Assembly: GCA_903864265.1 (NCBI GenBank)
Contig: CAIPFN010000359.1
Span: forward strand, 1 to 39,913
Reading direction: 5' to 3'
Source of the DNA: an uncultured Bacteroidales bacterium
GTDB taxonomy: Bacteria > Bacteroidota > Bacteroidia > Bacteroidales > UBA4417
Length of the DNA stretch: 39,913 nucleotides
The notes under the pieces are model-generated. The model ran no database searches and had not been told where the DNA came from. It worked only from the letters and a program-made list of their open reading frames with translations. Below, in pieces: positions 2,929 through 39,913 of the stretch. Within the stretch, counting starts at the first letter, position 1. The number at the start of each line of letters is the position of its first letter. A program made the translations under genes and the position numbers.

Positions 2929-2962
2929 GTCCTTTACGTTTTTTCATTGCTGCTTAATTTAG
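2929..2962 (+). promoter_or_regulatory. Putative phage late promoter (variant spacing)
   Basis: GTCCTTTA (2929-2936), N18, TAATTTAG (2955-2962), upstream of ORF 3008. Confidence 0.5.
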
Positions 2963-3007
2963 CAACTCTTTACAATTCACATCAGTGAAAACTAAATTAA
3001 TCAACAA

Positions 3008-3409: not shown

Positions 3410-3435
3410 CGACAGATAAAAATAATAGCATAACA

Positions 3436-3467
3436 AAGCCCTGCCTCCATGGCAGGGCTTTTCTTTT
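3436..3467 (+). terminator. Rho-independent terminator
   Basis: AAGCCCTGCC-TCCAT-GGCAGGGCTT followed by TTCTTTT. Confidence 0.9.
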
Positions 3468-3502
3468 GTCCTTTACCAAAATCGCCGCCCGCTGTATCAT
3501 TG
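3468..3502 (+). promoter_or_regulatory. Putative phage late promoter
   Basis: GTCCTTTA (3468-3475), N19, TATCATTG (3495-3502). Confidence 0.7.
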
Positions 3503-7531: not shown

Positions 7532-7702
7532 ATGTCCAGAGTTCATATTACGTACTTAATAGGGGAAACCCTCGTTTATCTTGGCTCAGCAATGAGCCAG
7601 AAGCCTTGGTCGGCTTTGGAACGGATGAGCGAGGGTTTCCCCATTAAGGAGACAAATTATGGAAACGACAGTAACCACTGTTGCCCGTGTCAACGAAGTT
7701 GA
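7532..7702 (+). CDS. Possible leader ORF (56 aa) overlapping the antirepressor start; absent from the ORF track
   Basis: ATG 7532 to TGA 7700-7702: MSRVHITYLIGETLVYLGSAMSQKPWSALERMSEGFPIKETNYGNDSNHCCPCQRS; out of frame with ORF 7659. Confidence 0.35.
   Translation: MSRVHITYLIGETLVYLGSAMSQKPWSALERMSEGFPIKETNYGNDSNHCCPCQRS
7555..7648 (+). ncRNA. Structured leader element (three-way-junction fold) upstream of antirepressor
   Basis: P1: CTTAAT(a)GGGGAAACCCTCG (7555-7574) with CGAGGGTTTCCCCATTAAG (7630-7648); P2: TGGCTCA-GCAA-TGAGCCA (7582-7599); P3: AAGCC-TTGGTC-GGCTT (7601-7616). Confidence 0.7.
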
Positions 7703-8222
7703 CATTCAAATCATCATGAACGGCGAAAAACAAGTTGCCGTTAAACCAATTTGCCAGGCTCTTGGCATCGCATTCGAAGCCCAATTTGTAAAGCTGAAAA
7801 CTGATCCGATTTTGAGTTCAGTTGTTATGACCAGCATAACAACTGGATCGGATAAAAAGCAGTACGAAATGGTCACCATTCCGCTTAAATTTGTTTTTGG
7901 ATGGTTGTTTCGTATCGACAGCCGCAACGTAAAACCCGAAGCCAGGGAAGTTGTGTTAAAATATCAGTTGGAATGTTACAACGCCCTTTACAACTACTTT
8001 ACCCGTCACGACGAATACCTGGAGTGGCGCGATAAGGTTATCGCCGAAAGGCTCACGCTCTATGATGCCGCCCGGTTGGAATTCCGCGACGCAAAGGATA
8101 AAGTGCAGGATGCCCGCGACCTGCTCAACGAAGCCCGCAAAATTACCGAGGAAGCTTATTTTGCAGATAAGGACCAGCTGCGTATCCAGTTTGGTGAAGA
8201 AAGCGAGGTAACCAATGCCTGA
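7659..8222 (+). CDS. Phage antirepressor, P22 Ant N-terminal-domain type
   Basis: N-terminus VDIQIIMNGEKQVAVKPICQALGIAFEAQFVKLKTDPILSSVV...MVTIPLKFVFGWLFRID fits PF10547-type antirepressors. Confidence 0.8.
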   Translation: METTVTTVARVNEVDIQIIMNGEKQVAVKPICQALGIAFEAQFVKLKTDPILSSVVMTSITTGSDKKQYEMVTIPLKFVFGWLFRIDSRNVKPEAREVVLKYQLECYNALYNYFTRHDEYLEWRDKVIAERLTLYDAARLEFRDAKDKVQDARDLLNEARKITEEAYFADKDQLRIQFGEESEVTNA

Positions 8223-8503: not shown

Positions 8504-8534
8504 AGCCCCGCCCACAAAGCGGGGCTTTTGTTTT
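8504..8534 (+). terminator. Rho-independent terminator
   Basis: AGCCCCGC-CCACAAA-GCGGGGCT then TTTGTTTT. Confidence 0.9.
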
Positions 8535-8570
8535 GTCCTTTACCCTGATGTGCAAACACGTTTAATTTGT
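8535..8570 (+). promoter_or_regulatory. Putative phage late promoter
   Basis: GTCCTTTA (8535-8542), N19, TTAATTTG (8562-8569). Confidence 0.65.
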
Positions 8571-15090: not shown

Positions 15091-15125
15091 GTCCTTTAAC
15101 AACAATTCAATCAGGATTATAATTG
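15091..15125 (+). promoter_or_regulatory. Putative phage late promoter
   Basis: GTCCTTTA (15091-15098), N19, TATAATTG (15118-15125). Confidence 0.7.
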
Positions 15126-16562: not shown

Positions 16563-16613
16563 AATTATGATCAGAATAATTTTTTAACCGAATAATCCTT
16601 CTGAATCTTTTAA

Positions 16614-16645
16614 AAAAGCCCTGAACCCGTCAGGGCTTTTCTTTT
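16614..16645 (+). terminator. Rho-independent terminator
   Basis: AAAAGCCCTGA-ACCCG-TCAGGGCTTTT then CTTTT. Confidence 0.9.
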
Positions 16646-16680
16646 GTCCTTTAACAAAACCACATTCTAAATTATCATTG
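16646..16680 (+). promoter_or_regulatory. Putative phage late promoter
   Basis: GTCCTTTA (16646-16653), N19, TATCATTG (16673-16680). Confidence 0.7.
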
Positions 16681-16700
16681 CTTATCTAAAAACATAAGCA

Positions 16701-17378
16701 ATGAAAAAATTACTGATTATCCTGCTCCTCTTCATCGCAATAGGAGTATCCGGACAGGTTACCTGCCCGCCAACAGTTGCACATCTTTATTTTAATGTTC
16801 CCAAACCGCTTGTGCTGAATCAGAAGATTGGTTCAGTAAAAATCTGCGATCCTGATGCAGGGCAACATGATACGCTTGAAATTTTACCAGGCACATCTTC
16901 CAACTTATTCGGCTTGCTTGGAAATGACATCCTGGTAAGTAATTCCTCCACGATCAACAGCAGCACTGCAGCCACCTATTCCATCACGCTCAGGGCGTCG
17001 GATAATGGTTCTCCTCCCCTGTTTACAACGGCCATTGTGACATTTACCATTACCCAGGATAACGTTCCACCGGCGGTGGTAAACCAGGTATTTTATATTA
17101 AAGCTTCAGGAACAAATCCGGTGACCTTTGGTCCATTCCTGGCAACGGACCGCAATTTCGGTACAACACTATCCTATGCCATCGTATATGGCAATTCCGA
17201 GAATTTCTTTTCCATCAACCAGGCAACCGGTTATATTACAATGAAAGGCACGGCCGGTAAAACGTTTAAATCGTCGCGAACCTGGAATCTGATCATTGCC
17301 GTAACGGACACGCCTGTGGTATCCGGTGGCAAGACGAATACGGTTAAAGCCTGGGCTAAAATAACAGTCACGAAATAG
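16701..17378 (+). CDS. Exported cadherin-like repeat protein
   Basis: Signal peptide MKKLLIILLLFIAIGVSGQ; two cadherin-like segments (TYSITLRASDNGSPPL; FSINQATGYITMKG...WNLIIAVTD). Confidence 0.6.
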   Translation: MKKLLIILLLFIAIGVSGQVTCPPTVAHLYFNVPKPLVLNQKIGSVKICDPDAGQHDTLEILPGTSSNLFGLLGNDILVSNSSTINSSTAATYSITLRASDNGSPPLFTTAIVTFTITQDNVPPAVVNQVFYIKASGTNPVTFGPFLATDRNFGTTLSYAIVYGNSENFFSINQATGYITMKGTAGKTFKSSRTWNLIIAVTDTPVVSGGKTNTVKAWAKITVTK

Positions 17379-17379
17379 C

Positions 17380-18270
17380 ATGGCCTACGGTATAATCGAA
17401 TATGATGCTGCGGGTCTTCCAAAATGTGAACTGTGTGGCGAATATTTTAACAGGGTCGTATCGCATGTGCGTCAGAAACACGATTTAACGGCACGGGAAT
17501 ATAAGAAGCAATTCGGTTTTGATGTGAGTAAAGGAATTTGCAGTGCCGAAAGCAGTTTGCTTACCCGCGAAAAAACACTTTCAAATTACGATAAATGTAT
17601 CAGTCGAAACATTATAGGTCATAACCACAAATTTAAAAAACACCACAAAGGACGCACGCGCGACCAGGTATCGGAACAAACCAGGATTATGCTCCGTAAA
17701 CGGCTTGAAGGTGTTGATCAGGAAAAAGTTAAAGCACACTGCAGCTTACTTGGACTATCCGGGATAGGTAATAAGGCAAAGCGCTACAAACGATTAAGGG
17801 CAGGACGAACCGAATTTTTTGATACAGAACTTGTAAAAAACCGAAACCGTTTACTTGCTCATTTTGATGAAGAAATTGTAAGCTGGACGATAGATGAAGC
17901 GCTACGTTGCCATGCGAACTGGAATCCGAAACGATGCGGGATGCATACCTGGTTGTATTCTATTGCAAATCATCTGAAGCTGCAGCATGAATTTAAAAAG
18001 GAACGACTTACCTATATTGAGGATTATTCCCGCATGGCTTCGTATTCGATATGCAGCCAGGAACCTTCACACGACTCGAAACTTATAACTAAATGCATGG
18101 GCGAACTTACCGAACGGCAGCGCGAAGTAATCCGCCTGCTGAGCGAAGGGTATAAAGTGGGAGAACTGGCCGTACGTTATGCGAAAACGCCAAAGGCTAT
18201 GAAAGCCTATGTATGGAGCATAAGGCAGTTATTTCGCGGGAAACTGATTGAAAATGATATTATGGTTTAA
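17380..18270 (+). CDS. MucR/Ros-like C2H2 zinc finger fused to sigma-70-like regions 2 and 4
   Basis: N-term CELCGEYFNRVVSHVRQKHDLTAREYKKQFG; middle NWNPKRCGMHTWLYSIANHLKLQHEFKKER (ECF region-2-like); C-term LTERQREVIRLLSEGYKVGELAVRYAKTPKAMKAYVWSIRQLFRGKL (region 4 HTH). Confidence 0.75.
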   Translation: MAYGIIEYDAAGLPKCELCGEYFNRVVSHVRQKHDLTAREYKKQFGFDVSKGICSAESSLLTREKTLSNYDKCISRNIIGHNHKFKKHHKGRTRDQVSEQTRIMLRKRLEGVDQEKVKAHCSLLGLSGIGNKAKRYKRLRAGRTEFFDTELVKNRNRLLAHFDEEIVSWTIDEALRCHANWNPKRCGMHTWLYSIANHLKLQHEFKKERLTYIEDYSRMASYSICSQEPSHDSKLITKCMGELTERQREVIRLLSEGYKVGELAVRYAKTPKAMKAYVWSIRQLFRGKLIENDIMV

Positions 18271-18280
18271 TAATGCGTTT

Positions 18281-20512
18281 ATGAAATTAATTATAGGTAA
18301 TTCCAATATTCCTTTAGCAACAGGCATCAGCCTTCCGCTTGTTCTCCGTTCGCCACTTTTCGACACCAGCGACGGCAAAACCCCGGGAAGTTTTATCTTT
18401 AATTTTAATCTTCCGGCAACGCCTGATCTTCGTCGACAATTTGGACAGGCTCACCGGACACTTCGCGGCGGAAGGGCAACGGCAACGCTGCCATATAAAT
18501 TAAAAGATGGAAGTTTAAAATACGAAGGAACCTGCACACTTATAGAAGCCGATTCAGATTCATACTCAATTAGTTTTGCGGTCGAAAATGGTGATCTGGC
18601 ATTTGCGTTAAAAGATAAAACGTTGAAAGATCTTGATCTGGGGGGAGACATACCTGTAGCAGATGTTTTTTCGCTTGCAAATATGCCCACCGAGGGAGAT
18701 TTGATAAATATTCAAACGGATCACGAACAGCATTTCGCGGGTACTTTTAATTCTGGATTGATAATCCAGGATCTTACCAATTCAATGAGTAGTAATGGTG
18801 GAATTTTTACAGCTCCTAATGCCGTATCGTTGACTCTTCGCCTGAAGATTATTTATCATTACCTGGATGGTAATTGCCTGTTGCGTTTAAAGGTAAACGG
18901 TATTGATGCAGTTGTTTTGACAATGAATGATAAATCAATCTATTGGGCCGAATTGAATGAATCTATTGCATTGAATTTATCGGCAGGAGATGTAGTTTCG
19001 ATCTATTTTGATTTAATTACAACCTATGATGCATTACATAATGGATGGTATCTGTATTATAAAATGGGTAAGGGAGGATTCATTGAATTTTCATCTGTGA
19101 ATATATTCAATATGGCATGCCAGGGGAATCAGAATACGTTTGATTTTGCCATTTTCCCGGTCGAAAATCCTGAGTTTTTTACCAATTTCCCGGATGATCA
19201 TTTCATGCTAGATAATCGAAGCCTAAAGGAATTATATTCGAAATATTTTCCGGTACAGAATTATTACAAGGATGGACAATTTTCGATGATCCTGGGAGGA
19301 CACCTGGAGGGAGAATATTTAAGCGCATCAAATTTGTTTACTCCATTCGTTTATTTTAATACCCTTTTAAATAAAATCTCTGCAGCTGCCGGGTACCGCA
19401 TTTTAAACAGCCCATATACCGGAAACGAATCGACTGCGAACAGCCATTACAATGCTGTTCTATATTATCCTTTTGCCGAAAATACCTATCTGGAAAGCGA
19501 TACACATATTGCTCCAGTAAAGCCAACTTTTAATCTCATTGACCATGTTCCGGCCATGAGCCAGATCGAGTTCCTTCGCGAAGCTGCCAAGGTAGCCGGC
19601 ATGCGTCTGGTGGTAAGTAACAATGAGCGTACCATTACCTTTGTTTCGCTTCAGGATCAGATAAATCTAGCGCCAAAACAATTCCCGGGAATTCTTCAGG
19701 CAAATCCATTGATAAAAGTATCCCCTGAATACAAAGGCATTAAGTTCGAATTTAAAAAAGCGCCGCGCGATAATTACATTGCCGGTCACCTTAAGGAAAT
19801 TGATCCGACAATCGTGTATAAAGGTTCTGTCGCCAATCCTCACGATCTTTTTGCCATAACAGGTCAGAAAATAAACGATTGTTATCTGATGCTGGCCGTA
19901 AACGAATTATATGTCTGGAGATACGATCCCAAAACATACCAGGTTGGCTGGATGTTCTACAGTACGAACTTTTTTCTTTCATACCAGGAAGGCGTAGAAC
20001 CATTCCTTACCATAAGCAACGAATTTTGCCCGCTCCTTACCCATGCAACAATGGATAATACGGTTGTATCTGCCGTTGAACGCGGTTGGCTTATACCAGT
20101 AACCTCGCAGCCGGGTATTATGGAAGGCGTTCCGAATACCGATAACGAATTCAGCAAACAGATCTTGTTTTACCGTGGTATGCAACTCGATGGACAAGGG
20201 AATCTATACCCGCTCGGGACACCTGGAAATAAGAACTTCAACAACGATATTTTCGGTTTCAGTGTTGCTCTTTGTGCTGCCGGAGATTCCGCTAATATGT
20301 ATCTCGCCCACAAAACCTTTATGAATTGGCTGGCCTATGATGCAAAGCCGGTTACATATAAGGCAATATTTACGCGCGGCCAGCTCGCGGCCACTAAACT
20401 GCATGAGCCCTACATTGATACACACGGCGTTGTTTTCCTGATAAAAGAAATCCGCATCAATTTGATGACCGATGGATTGAGCATTGCCGAAATGGATATC
20501 TATACCAGGTAA
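18281..20512 (+). CDS. Large tail / baseplate protein
   Basis: About 743 aa, tail module just upstream of lysis genes; start refined to ATG 18281. Confidence 0.55.
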   Translation: MKLIIGNSNIPLATGISLPLVLRSPLFDTSDGKTPGSFIFNFNLPATPDLRRQFGQAHRTLRGGRATATLPYKLKDGSLKYEGTCTLIEADSDSYSISFAVENGDLAFALKDKTLKDLDLGGDIPVADVFSLANMPTEGDLINIQTDHEQHFAGTFNSGLIIQDLTNSMSSNGGIFTAPNAVSLTLRLKIIYHYLDGNCLLRLKVNGIDAVVLTMNDKSIYWAELNESIALNLSAGDVVSIYFDLITTYDALHNGWYLYYKMGKGGFIEFSSVNIFNMACQGNQNTFDFAIFPVENPEFFTNFPDDHFMLDNRSLKELYSKYFPVQNYYKDGQFSMILGGHLEGEYLSASNLFTPFVYFNTLLNKISAAAGYRILNSPYTGNESTANSHYNAVLYYPFAENTYLESDTHIAPVKPTFNLIDHVPAMSQIEFLREAAKVAGMRLVVSNNERTITFVSLQDQINLAPKQFPGILQANPLIKVSPEYKGIKFEFKKAPRDNYIAGHLKEIDPTIVYKGSVANPHDLFAITGQKINDCYLMLAVNELYVWRYDPKTYQVGWMFYSTNFFLSYQEGVEPFLTISNEFCPLLTHATMDNTVVSAVERGWLIPVTSQPGIMEGVPNTDNEFSKQILFYRGMQLDGQGNLYPLGTPGNKNFNNDIFGFSVALCAAGDSANMYLAHKTFMNWLAYDAKPVTYKAIFTRGQLAATKLHEPYIDTHGVVFLIKEIRINLMTDGLSIAEMDIYTR

Positions 20513-20516
20513 TAAT

Positions 20517-20552
20517 GTCCTTTATATAAATATAAGTAAAAGTGTAATTTGT
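20517..20552 (+). promoter_or_regulatory. Putative phage late promoter (lysis operon)
   Basis: GTCCTTTA (20517-20524), N19, GTAATTTG (20544-20551). Confidence 0.6.
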
Positions 20553-24104: not shown

Positions 24105-24317
24105 ATGGATTTCTCCGGAAAATTAAACTTTACAGACTATTACAAAAGCTACTCAGAATCTCAGGGTGAACTGCGCCGAAGGATATGTGACAGGCTGGAA
24201 ATAAGCTTCAAAACATTCTATAATAAAATGAATGGAAATTCATGGACAACAATAGAACTGGAAGCTATTGAAAAAATAGTAAACGATTTGAATACCGAAC
24301 TTTCAAATGCATTCTGA
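24105..24317 (+). CDS. Small HTH (Cro-like) regulator
   Basis: 70 aa, RRRICDRLEISFKTFYNKMNGNSWTTIELEAIEKI; divergent from repressor. Confidence 0.55.
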   Translation: MDFSGKLNFTDYYKSYSESQGELRRRICDRLEISFKTFYNKMNGNSWTTIELEAIEKIVNDLNTELSNAF

Positions 24318-24858
24318 TATGAGCAAAGAAATCTATTGGAACGAAACCCGGAATGTTCTTCTAACCGAAGTCATCGAAACCGCTAAAAATATGCGCCTGG
24401 ATGAATGGCCGGGTGAAGATATTCAGCGATACGATTCTGAAATTGCCAGTCAGCGGCCTAAGGTATATAAAGCCCTCTGTGAAGGGTTTGGTTATGGTCC
24501 GCAATTCGCTTTCAACAGGGTTTACCAGTTCTCGGCCTGTAATTTTTCCACGCACGACGGCCGGGCCGATATCGGTGTCGACTGGCTGTTCACGGTCGAA
24601 CGTGTGCCCTGCCCTGTGAGGCATAAATGCAGTGCCGGTTATTGCTCCAACGAAAACATGCTTTCCGTAAGGGAAACGGAGATCGTTAGATTATTCGCCC
24701 AGGGCTGTGACGAAGACTCGATAGCCGTGAAGCTTTTCATTGCGCGCTCAACCGTGCACAACCACATGACGAATATCTACCACAAATTAGGTCTGTCAGG
24801 AAATACCCATCCCGAACGCCTGTTGCTGAGCTACGCCTATTCAAACAAAATAATCTAA
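24307..24858 (+). CDS. LuxR-type HTH regulator with Cys-rich linker
   Basis: LSVRETEIVRLFAQGCDEDSIAVKLFIARSTVHNHMTNIYHKLGL is a GerE/LuxR HTH; preceded by CPVRHKCSAGYC. Confidence 0.8.
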   Translation: MHSDMSKEIYWNETRNVLLTEVIETAKNMRLDEWPGEDIQRYDSEIASQRPKVYKALCEGFGYGPQFAFNRVYQFSACNFSTHDGRADIGVDWLFTVERVPCPVRHKCSAGYCSNENMLSVRETEIVRLFAQGCDEDSIAVKLFIARSTVHNHMTNIYHKLGLSGNTHPERLLLSYAYSNKII

Positions 24859-34190: not shown

Positions 34191-34571
34191 ATGATCATCC
34201 TGGCACTCGATTACAAATTCACCGAAAACGGGACCTGGGTCCCCATCCCGATACAACAATATTCAGGATCATTCGTCGAACAACCCGAACAAACCGATGC
34301 CGGCATCCTGATGTCAGCGGAAGTTACCGCATACATGCCGGTGATCGATGATACCAAAAATGCAATGGTCGGTCAGCTGAACCGCCGTCCGGCTATTTTC
34401 CGGGTAACAGATGCCTGCAACCATTATTTTGAAATCGGCAGCGATGCCGAGCTGGCTGTTTTTTCGGGATCGGAAAAAATAGGTCCTAACCCTGGCGTTG
34501 CCTATGGCTGGGATATCAAGATTACATGCCTTTCTGTGTTGGGTGCAAAAATGTCGTCCTTTACCAATTAG
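34191..34571 (+). CDS. Phage virion-associated protein (putative)
   Basis: Start refined from 34140 (a hairpin lies at 34141-34159); upstream of protease. Confidence 0.4.
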   Translation: MIILALDYKFTENGTWVPIPIQQYSGSFVEQPEQTDAGILMSAEVTAYMPVIDDTKNAMVGQLNRRPAIFRVTDACNHYFEIGSDAELAVFSGSEKIGPNPGVAYGWDIKITCLSVLGAKMSSFTN

Positions 34572-34590
34572 CCTTACCGATTTATCATTG
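34556..34590 (+). promoter_or_regulatory. Putative phage late promoter (head operon)
   Basis: GTCCTTTA (34556-34563), N19, TATCATTG (34583-34590). Confidence 0.7.
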
Positions 34591-34606
34591 TGCATAATAC
34601 CGCGCA

Positions 34607-35854
34607 ATGATTCAACCTCATTTCATATCTGCCATTTTAAACGAGCCCTGGGCAATTTCAGAAATCCATGCTTTAGGCTTATCTTCATTATTATCCCGGA
34701 TTTTCGATCCTAAAATCGAATTCGAAAAAGGTTCTCCCTCGCTGCCTTCGCTTCATGCTGCTTCCTCACCGACTGCCGGTCCCGCTTCCCGGGGATCGGC
34801 AGTAGGTGATCCTGGCGTTAAACAGATCCAGGTCATTACCATTTCCGGTCCGCTCATGAAAAACGACCAATACTGCGGACCTGCCGGAATGAAAAGCATG
34901 GGTAACTGGATAAAGCAGGCCGATAAGGATCCCGGCGTAGATGGCATTCTGCTCGTGATCGATTCGCCTGGCGGAACCGTCAGCGGTACCGAAGATCTGG
35001 GCGCTATCATTAAAGGCACCAAAAAACCTATCGTGGCATACGTCGAAGATCTTGCAGCTTCAGCCGGTTACTGGCTGGCCTGCAACTGCGATGAGATCAT
35101 TGCCAATACGACCACAGCCCAGGTAGGATCCATCGGCGTACTTCTTTCATTTATGGACATACAGCCGGCGCTCGAACGCGAAGGCGTTGTTTTTCATACC
35201 ATCACCGCTCCCCAGAGCACGGAGAAAACCGCCATGTTCGACAAGATCCGGGCAGGCGAATACGAAGAATACAAAAACACAGTACTGGCGCCACTGGCAG
35301 CAAAATTCATCGATACGGTAACGGGCAACCGTGCCAACGTTAACGAATCCCAGACCAAAGGCGCTGTTTACTTCGCCAAAGATGTAATCGGCTCCCTGGT
35401 CGACAGCATCGGCACATTCGACCAGGCGCTGCAGCGTGTTGCAGAACTGGCCACTCCATCCGCCACCTTTAATCCACCAAATACAACCATGACAAAACCT
35501 GAATTGAAGCGGCTTGCAAAAGCTGCAGCTATTCCGCATTTCGAAACTGCGGATGGCACGATTTCGCTTTCGGCCGAGAATGCACTGGATGTTGAGTCCG
35601 CCCTCGAAGCGCACGAAACGGCCCAGGAAGATCTCCAGGCTAAAGTGGATGCTTCTACCAATCAGCAGGCGAGAATTACTGAACTTGAAGGAAACCTCAA
35701 GACAGCCAACGACCGCATTGCCGAACTCTCAAAGGAACCCGGAGCAGATACGGCAACTGTAGATAAAAATACAGACGCAAATGAGGGCCTTCAGACCGAA
35801 GGAAATTTCTGGTCGCGGTATTTTGCACTTGCACCCAAACCTAAAACCAAATAA
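34607..35854 (+). CDS. S49-family prohead protease with C-terminal scaffold-like extension
   Basis: LLVIDSPGGTVSG, AYVEDLAASAGYWLA, QVGSIGVLLSFMD; C-terminal coiled coil. Confidence 0.85.
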   Translation: MIQPHFISAILNEPWAISEIHALGLSSLLSRIFDPKIEFEKGSPSLPSLHAASSPTAGPASRGSAVGDPGVKQIQVITISGPLMKNDQYCGPAGMKSMGNWIKQADKDPGVDGILLVIDSPGGTVSGTEDLGAIIKGTKKPIVAYVEDLAASAGYWLACNCDEIIANTTTAQVGSIGVLLSFMDIQPALEREGVVFHTITAPQSTEKTAMFDKIRAGEYEEYKNTVLAPLAAKFIDTVTGNRANVNESQTKGAVYFAKDVIGSLVDSIGTFDQALQRVAELATPSATFNPPNTTMTKPELKRLAKAAAIPHFETADGTISLSAENALDVESALEAHETAQEDLQAKVDASTNQQARITELEGNLKTANDRIAELSKEPGADTATVDKNTDANEGLQTEGNFWSRYFALAPKPKTK

Positions 35855-38320: not shown

Positions 38321-39820
38321 ATGTATAATAATGAGCAGGTCACATTCAACATGGCCACCATGCCTGCACGCGTCGAAGCTTTGCAGGATACTGTTTTAAC
38401 GATCCTTCCCCAGTGTGATCTGCTCAATATTTACCTCAATAACTTCGATGAAGTGCCGGCCTTCCTGGTGCATCCGAAAATAAAAACCTTCCTGGGGAAA
38501 AAACACAAGGGAGATCTCGGAGATGTCGGGAAATTCTATAAAGTAGCGAACCAGAAAGGATACATCTTCACTGTTGACGACAAAATATTGTACCCTCCCG
38601 ATTATGTACGTAAGATGGTTCAGACCATTGAGCGCACCGGGAGAAAAGCCGCTGTTTCGAACCATGGCCATAACTTTCATACAAACAGGCCATCCAGCTC
38701 TTATTACTTTGATATCGCCAAAGCATTTCATTACCAGTCGGCCAGCGAACTGACGTTTGTGCATAATGTCGGGACCGGTGTACTGGCATTCCACAGCGAT
38801 ACGCTTATGCTGGATTTATCCTGGTTCCCGCATTCGAATATGACTGATATTTATTTCAGCCTGGAGTGCCAGAAGCGGAATATCCCGCTGGTCATCCACC
38901 CGCACGCGAAAGGATGGCTGAAGTTGGGAACCAAACACGACGAGAATTTCTCAATACACGCTTTTTGTAACAGGAAAGACGGGTTTCAGACGAAGGTAAT
39001 CAATGCTTTCTCCTGGAAGATTATAAGCTGCAAAGTAGAACCGTTATTCCCGGTCAGAATCGGATTCGAAGAAAGCCTGGAAGTACGGATAGGTGAACTG
39101 AACTGCAGCGTTTTTTCGCCTGAACTGGCCGTAATTGTGCCTGTTTTCAATAACCTGGAATTCACGCGCAAGCTTATCGAAGGTTTAAAGCAAAATACCT
39201 TTTCTCCTTATACACTTATAATCATTGATGATGCCTCCACGGATGGTACTATTGAGTATATAAGTAAGCTGAAAGCGACAGTTCCGCTTATTTACTACTA
39301 TAATGAAGTTAACAGGGGCGTTAATTATTCCTGGAACAAGGGAATCCGCATTGCCAGAAGCATAGGAGCCGAATATATGGCAATACTGAACAACGACCTG
39401 GAGTTAGCGCCCAAATGGGATCTTCCGCTTAAAAATAAGCTGGATGATGAAAACATAGGAATCGTGAGCCCTTATTCCACTTATGGCAACCAGTTACACA
39501 GGAGATTCCCCCTGGTGGGATCGGTAAACCCTTTGGGACTTGAAATTTTGGGTTGCTGTTTCATGTTCAGGAGCAGTTTGATCGATCGTATCGGTTATGT
39601 TCCTGAAGATTTACGGCATTATTATGGCGATAACTGGTTCCAGGATATCACAAAAGAGGCCGGCATGCAGGTCGTTTATGCGCCGGAAAGCCGGGTGCAT
39701 CATTATTACCAGCAAACAACTAGCAAAACGCGGCAGAATGAAATTGTAACCCACGATAAAAAGGCTTATGAAACCATACTTATGGATGGTATGGAACAGC
39801 ATATACACTTCAAAGCATGA
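38321..39820 (+). CDS. Two-domain glycosyltransferase (C-terminal GT2)
   Basis: C-terminal LAVIVPVFNNLEFTRKLIEGL...LIIIDDASTDGTIEY...AILNNDLELAPKWD; N-terminal domain has GYIFTVDDKILYPPDYV. Confidence 0.82.
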   Translation: MYNNEQVTFNMATMPARVEALQDTVLTILPQCDLLNIYLNNFDEVPAFLVHPKIKTFLGKKHKGDLGDVGKFYKVANQKGYIFTVDDKILYPPDYVRKMVQTIERTGRKAAVSNHGHNFHTNRPSSSYYFDIAKAFHYQSASELTFVHNVGTGVLAFHSDTLMLDLSWFPHSNMTDIYFSLECQKRNIPLVIHPHAKGWLKLGTKHDENFSIHAFCNRKDGFQTKVINAFSWKIISCKVEPLFPVRIGFEESLEVRIGELNCSVFSPELAVIVPVFNNLEFTRKLIEGLKQNTFSPYTLIIIDDASTDGTIEYISKLKATVPLIYYYNEVNRGVNYSWNKGIRIARSIGAEYMAILNNDLELAPKWDLPLKNKLDDENIGIVSPYSTYGNQLHRRFPLVGSVNPLGLEILGCCFMFRSSLIDRIGYVPEDLRHYYGDNWFQDITKEAGMQVVYAPESRVHHYYQQTTSKTRQNEIVTHDKKAYETILMDGMEQHIHFKA

Positions 39821-39913
39821 GCCGGAAGACCAATCTGGATAAATTCGAGGCCGTAATGTTCGACGACCGCAAAGATCTTAACCATCTTACGCCTGTAGAA
39901 CAGGATCAGGTAA
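39773..39913. repeat. Terminal direct repeat, copy 2
   Basis: Identical to 1-141 by direct comparison. Confidence 0.97.

Follow-up and report, generated by a model that had tools for sequence, protein, structure and literature searches.

A zinc finger-sigma fusion as a probable accessory late regulator in a Bacteroidota phage, and a late promoter shared with phages that lack it

The window, the whole stretch of 39,913 nucleotides analysed here, carries inside its late tail operon a gene that joins a Ros/MucR-type zinc finger to an ECF-sigma-like module. The explanation judged probable as a whole is that this fusion is an accessory late regulator, and that the late promoters of the phage are served by the host primary sigma factor together with a phage activator, the candidate for which is the product of ORF 33619. 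The explanation draws on computed fold, homology and synteny, on a swap of the DNA-binding domain between relatives, on the anatomy and distribution of the late promoter and on the finding that most phages with this promoter lack the sigma. A sequence-only reading of the locus had taken the fusion for the late sigma factor itself, directing RNA polymerase to GTCCTTTA promoters, with its finger possibly reading the GTCC of the motif, in an autoamplifying switch. The distribution and anatomy of the promoter argue against that model.

The window, contig C359 in a Bacteroidota assembly that is itself incomplete, has a 141-bp repeat common to both ends (1-141 and 39773-39913). It therefore probably represents an entire phage genome of about 39.77 kb, circular or circularly permuted. 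A glycosyltransferase family 2 gene (38321-39820) lies within the head/terminase region and is conserved in the relatives G425, G426 and G427. An antirepressor-like gene with a P22_AR N-terminal domain (7659-8222) is situated in the late region, between the portal and tail genes.

Table 1. Positions in the window of the fusion, its neighbours, the late promoter copies and the candidate activators
Feature	Position	Strand	Evidence or remark
Fusion ORF, 296 aa: Ros/MucR-type zinc finger, basic linker, ECF-sigma-like module	17380..18270	+	
Finger, residues 16-55	17425..17544	+	Pfam ROS_MUCR E=2.8e-4, below cut-off; ligands read from sequence
Region-2-like part, residues 145-205, shortened	17812..17994	+	hhalign to G425/G426, alignment; pLDDT mostly 67-84
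Region-4-like HTH, residues 235-289	18082..18246	+	Sigma70_r4_2 E=0.0023; Foldseek 3hug_K TM(target) 0.71, 2.4 A
Upstream neighbour: signal-peptide-like start, cadherin domain	16701..17378	+	Pfam Cadherin E=1.6e-12
Downstream neighbour: 754-aa tail-region gene	18248..20512	+	conserved in G425, G426, G427
Late promoter copy	2929..2963	+	
Late promoter copy, upstream of ORF 3466/3514 and portal 3744	3468..3502	+	
Late promoter copy, upstream of ORF 8627 and tape measure	8535..8569	+	
Late promoter copy, upstream of ORF 15144	15091..15125	+	
Late promoter GTCCTTTA-N19-TATCATTG before ORF 16701 and sigma gene	16646..16680	+	perfect dyad TCATTGCTTAT/ATAAGCAATGA
Late promoter copy, upstream of holin-like ORF	20517..20551	+	
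Late promoter upstream of head maturation protease (ORF 34607)	34556..34590	+	
LuxR/GerE early regulator, second, weaker candidate activator	24307..24858	+	Pfam GerE E=1.7e-12
Candidate late activator, 166 aa	33619..34119	+	promoter downstream in 20/20 records; model pLDDT 86

Architecture of the fusion and exchange of its head

The fusion gene is an intact open reading frame with an ATG start, its extent being as first read. It begins 2 nt past the upstream neighbour and overlaps the downstream one. An identical 4,094-bp contig in a second MAG covers it, and a genome-contig search with the protein returned only an identical copy. An assembly artefact is an unlikely source of the fusion, given this second contig and the syntenic homologues in two other phages.

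A Ros/MucR-like finger had been proposed at the N-terminus and is borne out by a Pfam match below the cut-off and by the translation, in which C16, C19, H29 and H34 are the ligands of a CxxC-N9-HxxxxH pattern. This pattern, followed by an LTxxEYxxxFG motif, is shared with the Ros/MucR zinc-finger regulators (PF05443). Unlike in those regulators, the finger scores under the Pfam threshold (21.4 bits against a gathering cut-off of 25.4) and is joined to a sigma module rather than standing alone. A homing endonuclease composed of a finger and a basic linker was also considered; it was dropped, as the Pfam and PHROG results are without a nuclease domain.

The sigma half of the protein is real. PHROG, hhalign and Foldseek place an ECF-sigma module at residues 145-293; PHROG 1740 ('RNA polymerase sigma factor') matches residues 161-289 with E=2.6e-5, and in a single-sequence search the C-terminal half matches Bacteroidota host ECF-like proteins with E down to 2.5e-5. 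Pfam Sigma70_r4_2 (PF08281) reaches 18 bits against a cut-off of 25.7, and Sigma70_r2 (PF04542) gives no Pfam match in the window protein even at E<=10. The AlphaFold model has low overall confidence (pLDDT 49.5) and an unreliable N-terminal half, but better values, mostly 63-85, in the sigma half. It displays the overall two-domain ECF-sigma fold, and its top PDB matches in Foldseek are nearly all ECF sigmas (SigL, SigH, SigE, SigW, AlgU and SigK; best E=7.5e-4, prob 1.0). The presence of ECF regions 2 and 4 in the C-terminal half, claimed from the sequence, is thus supported, including by the structure prediction proposed as a check. This layout is that of the ECF (group IV) sigma factors (PF04542/PF08281), from which the fusion differs in its additional N-terminal DNA-binding domain of about 140 aa and in a degenerate region 2.

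Sigma activity of the window fusion is uncertain because the shortened region 2 reads EIVSWT at the site of the core-binding motif DLxQxT (region 2.2), where relatives have DLAQET or DLVQDT; the protein may not bind core polymerase at all. These changes, together with the failure of Pfam to detect Sigma70_r2, favour a reading in which the window fusion is no longer a working sigma but a DNA-binding protein with a sigma fold that may act, late in infection, as a block on transcription or on RNA polymerase. However, the relatives keep a canonical region 2, and the aromatic/hydrophobic HTWLYSIAN core is kept in the window fusion itself. Such a non-sigma role is a serious possibility that falls short of likely, and it is the main rival to control of a small regulon by the fusion, the reading preferred below.

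Two relatives found via the capsid gene, G425 and G426, encode sigma proteins of 242 and 239 aa at the same position of the tail cassette. Both proteins pass Pfam for Sigma70_r2 and HTH_3, and that of G426 also for Sigma70_r4_2. Their sigma half aligns to window residues 145-293 (hhalign 97.1%, E=6e-11), but it is joined to an XRE helix-turn-helix instead of a zinc finger. The DNA-binding head is exchanged between relatives, while the genomic slot is constant. In the close relative G427, the syntenic slot holds another gene, without a sigma fusion. Single-sequence searches with the fusion protein found nothing in viral contigs and, in phage records, only a match of the finger in Microbacterium phage Min1. 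When the full-length XRE-sigma protein was searched against 399 Bacteroidota genomes, none of the matches listed spanned the N-terminal head with an open frame, and those listed resemble ordinary host ECFs. A profile of the three sigma halves run against all fetched records revealed no further member; the next-best matches were weak and mostly LuxR-type.

The late promoter and its distribution

In the window, GTCCTTTA occurs in 7 copies against 1.0 expected, all on the + (late) strand, and GTCCTTTA-N17-21-TAnnnTTG occurs 4 times against 0.01 expected. The copy at 16646 stands 55 nt before ORF 16701, which the sigma gene directly follows; the fusion does lie downstream of a GTCCTTTA promoter, as had been stated, with one gene in between.

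Many GTCCTTT promoters, both in the window (16646-16710, 34556-34610) and in relatives, have a dyad running from the -7 box past the expected start site and often reaching the start codon, for example TCATTGCTTAT...ATAAGCAATGA. The sequences vary and the symmetry is kept. A dyad score of at least 8 was found for 20% of 85 promoter sites versus 1.3% of shuffles. Furthermore, a terminator-tail-like GGGCTTTTCTTTT / GGGCTTTTGTTTT tract directly precedes three late promoters of the window (3431-3481, 8522-8542 and 16611-16661), so that the end of one transcription unit appears to be insulated from the start of the next.

Relatives were gathered by TerL, MCP and ORF 33619, and six phage records related by TerL were added. 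Most relatives are metagenomic contigs, some of them incomplete; end repeats mark only the window and G422. Among 22 Bacteroidota phages, 118 copies of GTCCTTT are located on the late strand, and 73% of them have a TA...TTG-like box at offset 27, compared with no more than 8% at each of the other offsets examined. The columns 27-34 nt after the G of GTCCTTT read TAnnTTTG in these phages, no downstream box having been required. In an unbiased count of upstream 7-mers, GTCCTTT came first in BT-TP2 and in the window, and it shared third place in Leef_1 and the P. gingivalis prophage. The + strand copies stand 39-69 nt before an annotated gene in Leef_1 (L146; 6/6), the P. gingivalis prophage (L150; 4/4) and BT-TP2 (L151; 5/5). 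Judged from these sequences, the promoter is real, marks late genes and is spread far wider than this phage. No promoter site was found in the TerL relatives G405, G409, G410, G416 and G421 or in Flavobacterium phage 6H. A limited search of the open-access literature gave no description of a GTCCTTT promoter or of late promoters in Bacteroides phages.

The primary-sigma promoter of Bacteroidota comprises TTTG at -33 and TAnnTTTG at -7, the latter box extending from -12 to -5 (PMC7366714; PMC9723704). The late promoter of the phages resembles it in the -7 half and in overall spacing; it differs in the addition of GTCC upstream of the -33 position and in the replacement of TTTG by TTTN. Since the -7 half equals the host box, GTCCTTTN would fall at about -39 to -32, with its TTT overlapping the host -33 box. 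The late promoter is presumably active and used by the host primary sigma factor, whereas an ECF sigma is not expected to read the TAnnTTTG half.

Of the 22 promoter-bearing phages, only 3 carry the sigma fusion, namely the window, G425 and G426. In the other 19, the box follows 72 of 97 late-strand GTCCTTT copies versus 6 of 62 on the opposite strand (p=2.7e-16). These carriers include G422 with its end repeats, the close relative G427, Leef_1, the P. gingivalis prophage and BT-TP2. For relatives known from incomplete metagenomic contigs, the sigma gene may fall outside the assembled sequence. The search for co-occurrence of fusion and motif, suggested with the first reading, has thus yielded relatives with the motif and without the protein. 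For the fusion to be the late sigma, its region 4 and finger would have to read GTCCTTTA in an autoamplifying loop, and the other phages would have to use unrelated readers. A GTCCTTTA promoter upstream of the gene and a genuine sigma fold agree with this. Nevertheless, the model is very unlikely, because the 19 phages keep the promoter without the fusion and because the region-4 recognition helices of the three sigmas differ while their promoters are identical. The -7 box moreover belongs to the host primary sigma, and the gene sits inside the operon that it must start. On these grounds the link between the fusion and the GTCCTTTA promoter is unsupported, the fusion is rejected as the reader of GTCC, and the autoamplifying late switch is largely refuted.

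T4 gp55 and SPO1 gp33/gp34 are phage late sigma factors. Like them, the fusion is a phage-borne sigma-like protein; unlike them, it is encoded within the late operon and absent from most of the phages that share its late promoter. As the gene lies in the late tail operon downstream of the 16646 promoter, it is likely to be a late-expressed accessory gene, a product and target of the late switch rather than its master.

Candidate readers of the GTCC box

The best candidate for the late activator is the product of ORF 33619, which lies two genes ahead of the head protease gene. Pfam assigns it to no family and PHROG gives no significant match; a PHROG scan of its distant homologues was likewise without an informative match. 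Its model has no PDB match and no recognised DNA-binding fold, and it matches an uncharacterised protein of Leef_1 (TM 0.60). Apart from the window, 19 phage contigs or prophages have a homologue, and in all 20 records a promoter stands 935-1128 bp downstream of the start of the family gene, always with a spacer of 19. The best promoter scores beside the family are 12-14, where the opposite strand gives 8-10, and only 12 of 1,000 shuffles reached 12. Weak homologues occupy the same place in the P. gingivalis prophage (E=9e-6), Leef_1 (3e-4) and, barely, BT-TP2 (0.3). Phage G413 has a weak homologue and the promoter at 4/5 sites; the six records named above that lack the promoter have no clear homologue; G415 and G406 have one promoter site each, with no homologue detected. 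This association makes the protein a candidate and does not amount to proof, because shared ancestry confounds it and a search with the family itself supplied about half of the records.

Two other accounts of the GTCC box were weighed. The early LuxR/GerE-type protein might read it in place of the ORF 33619 product. It has an HTH DNA-binding domain, and similar proteins occur in 14 of the records searched. However, such a protein is also present in Flavobacterium phage 6H, which is devoid of these promoters, and is undetected in the P. gingivalis prophage and BT-TP2, which have them; its recognition helix also varies between phages with the same box. This alternative appears quite improbable. 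The second account dispenses with a phage activator: the box would be part of a strong variant of the host-sigma promoter, switched on by replication or by loss of a repressor. The host-type -7 box and the overlap of TTT with the host -33 position are consistent with it. Against it, the GTCC box is not a usual host element in the window's assembly, where only one other loose match occurs, with a spacer of 21 rather than 19, and the box is absent from the five TerL relatives that also have no detectable ORF 33619 homologue. It is accordingly considered unlikely. The ORF 33619 product remains the preferred candidate.

Proposed role of the fusion

In the preferred explanation, host RNA polymerase with the host primary sigma would most likely read TAnnTTTG at the late promoters, and a phage activator, possibly the ORF 33619 product, would read the GTCC box that immediately precedes the -33 position. 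The fusion gene would probably be transcribed from the 16646 promoter and so be one target of the late switch. It occupies a variable slot of the tail cassette, in which relatives hold the XRE version or an unrelated gene. Made late, its product would be an accessory regulator of transcription in which a separate N-terminal DNA-binding domain is attached to an ECF-sigma-like module with regions 2 and 4. It would divert RNA polymerase to a small number of further promoters, in the phage or the host, picked by that N-terminal domain. Control of a small regulon chosen by the head is judged the most likely function.

According to PMC9429907, Bacillus phages carry sporulation-type sigma factors that may act on host genes. 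The fusion would be comparable as a phage sigma that may target host genes rather than phage late genes; it differs in being ECF-like and in Bacteroidota, whereas the factors described there are sporulation-type and in Bacillota. A broader generalisation can be put forward tentatively. There might be a class of phage ECF sigmas, made late and fitted with exchangeable heads (zinc finger or XRE), in which the head and not the promoter boxes decides where host RNA polymerase is tethered. The main late programme would meanwhile rest with a phylum-wide GTCCTTT promoter and its own activator family, that of ORF 33619.

The domain-swapped sigma fusion is a separate and small novelty, in which the head changes between close relatives and the slot stays. 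Taking it for the late master would have named the wrong late regulator. The late promoter appears to be common to tailed phages of Bacteroidota, including those of Bacteroides, Porphyromonas and Polaribacter, and with a shared promoter and a candidate activator at a fixed place before the head genes, late control in these phages would become directly testable.
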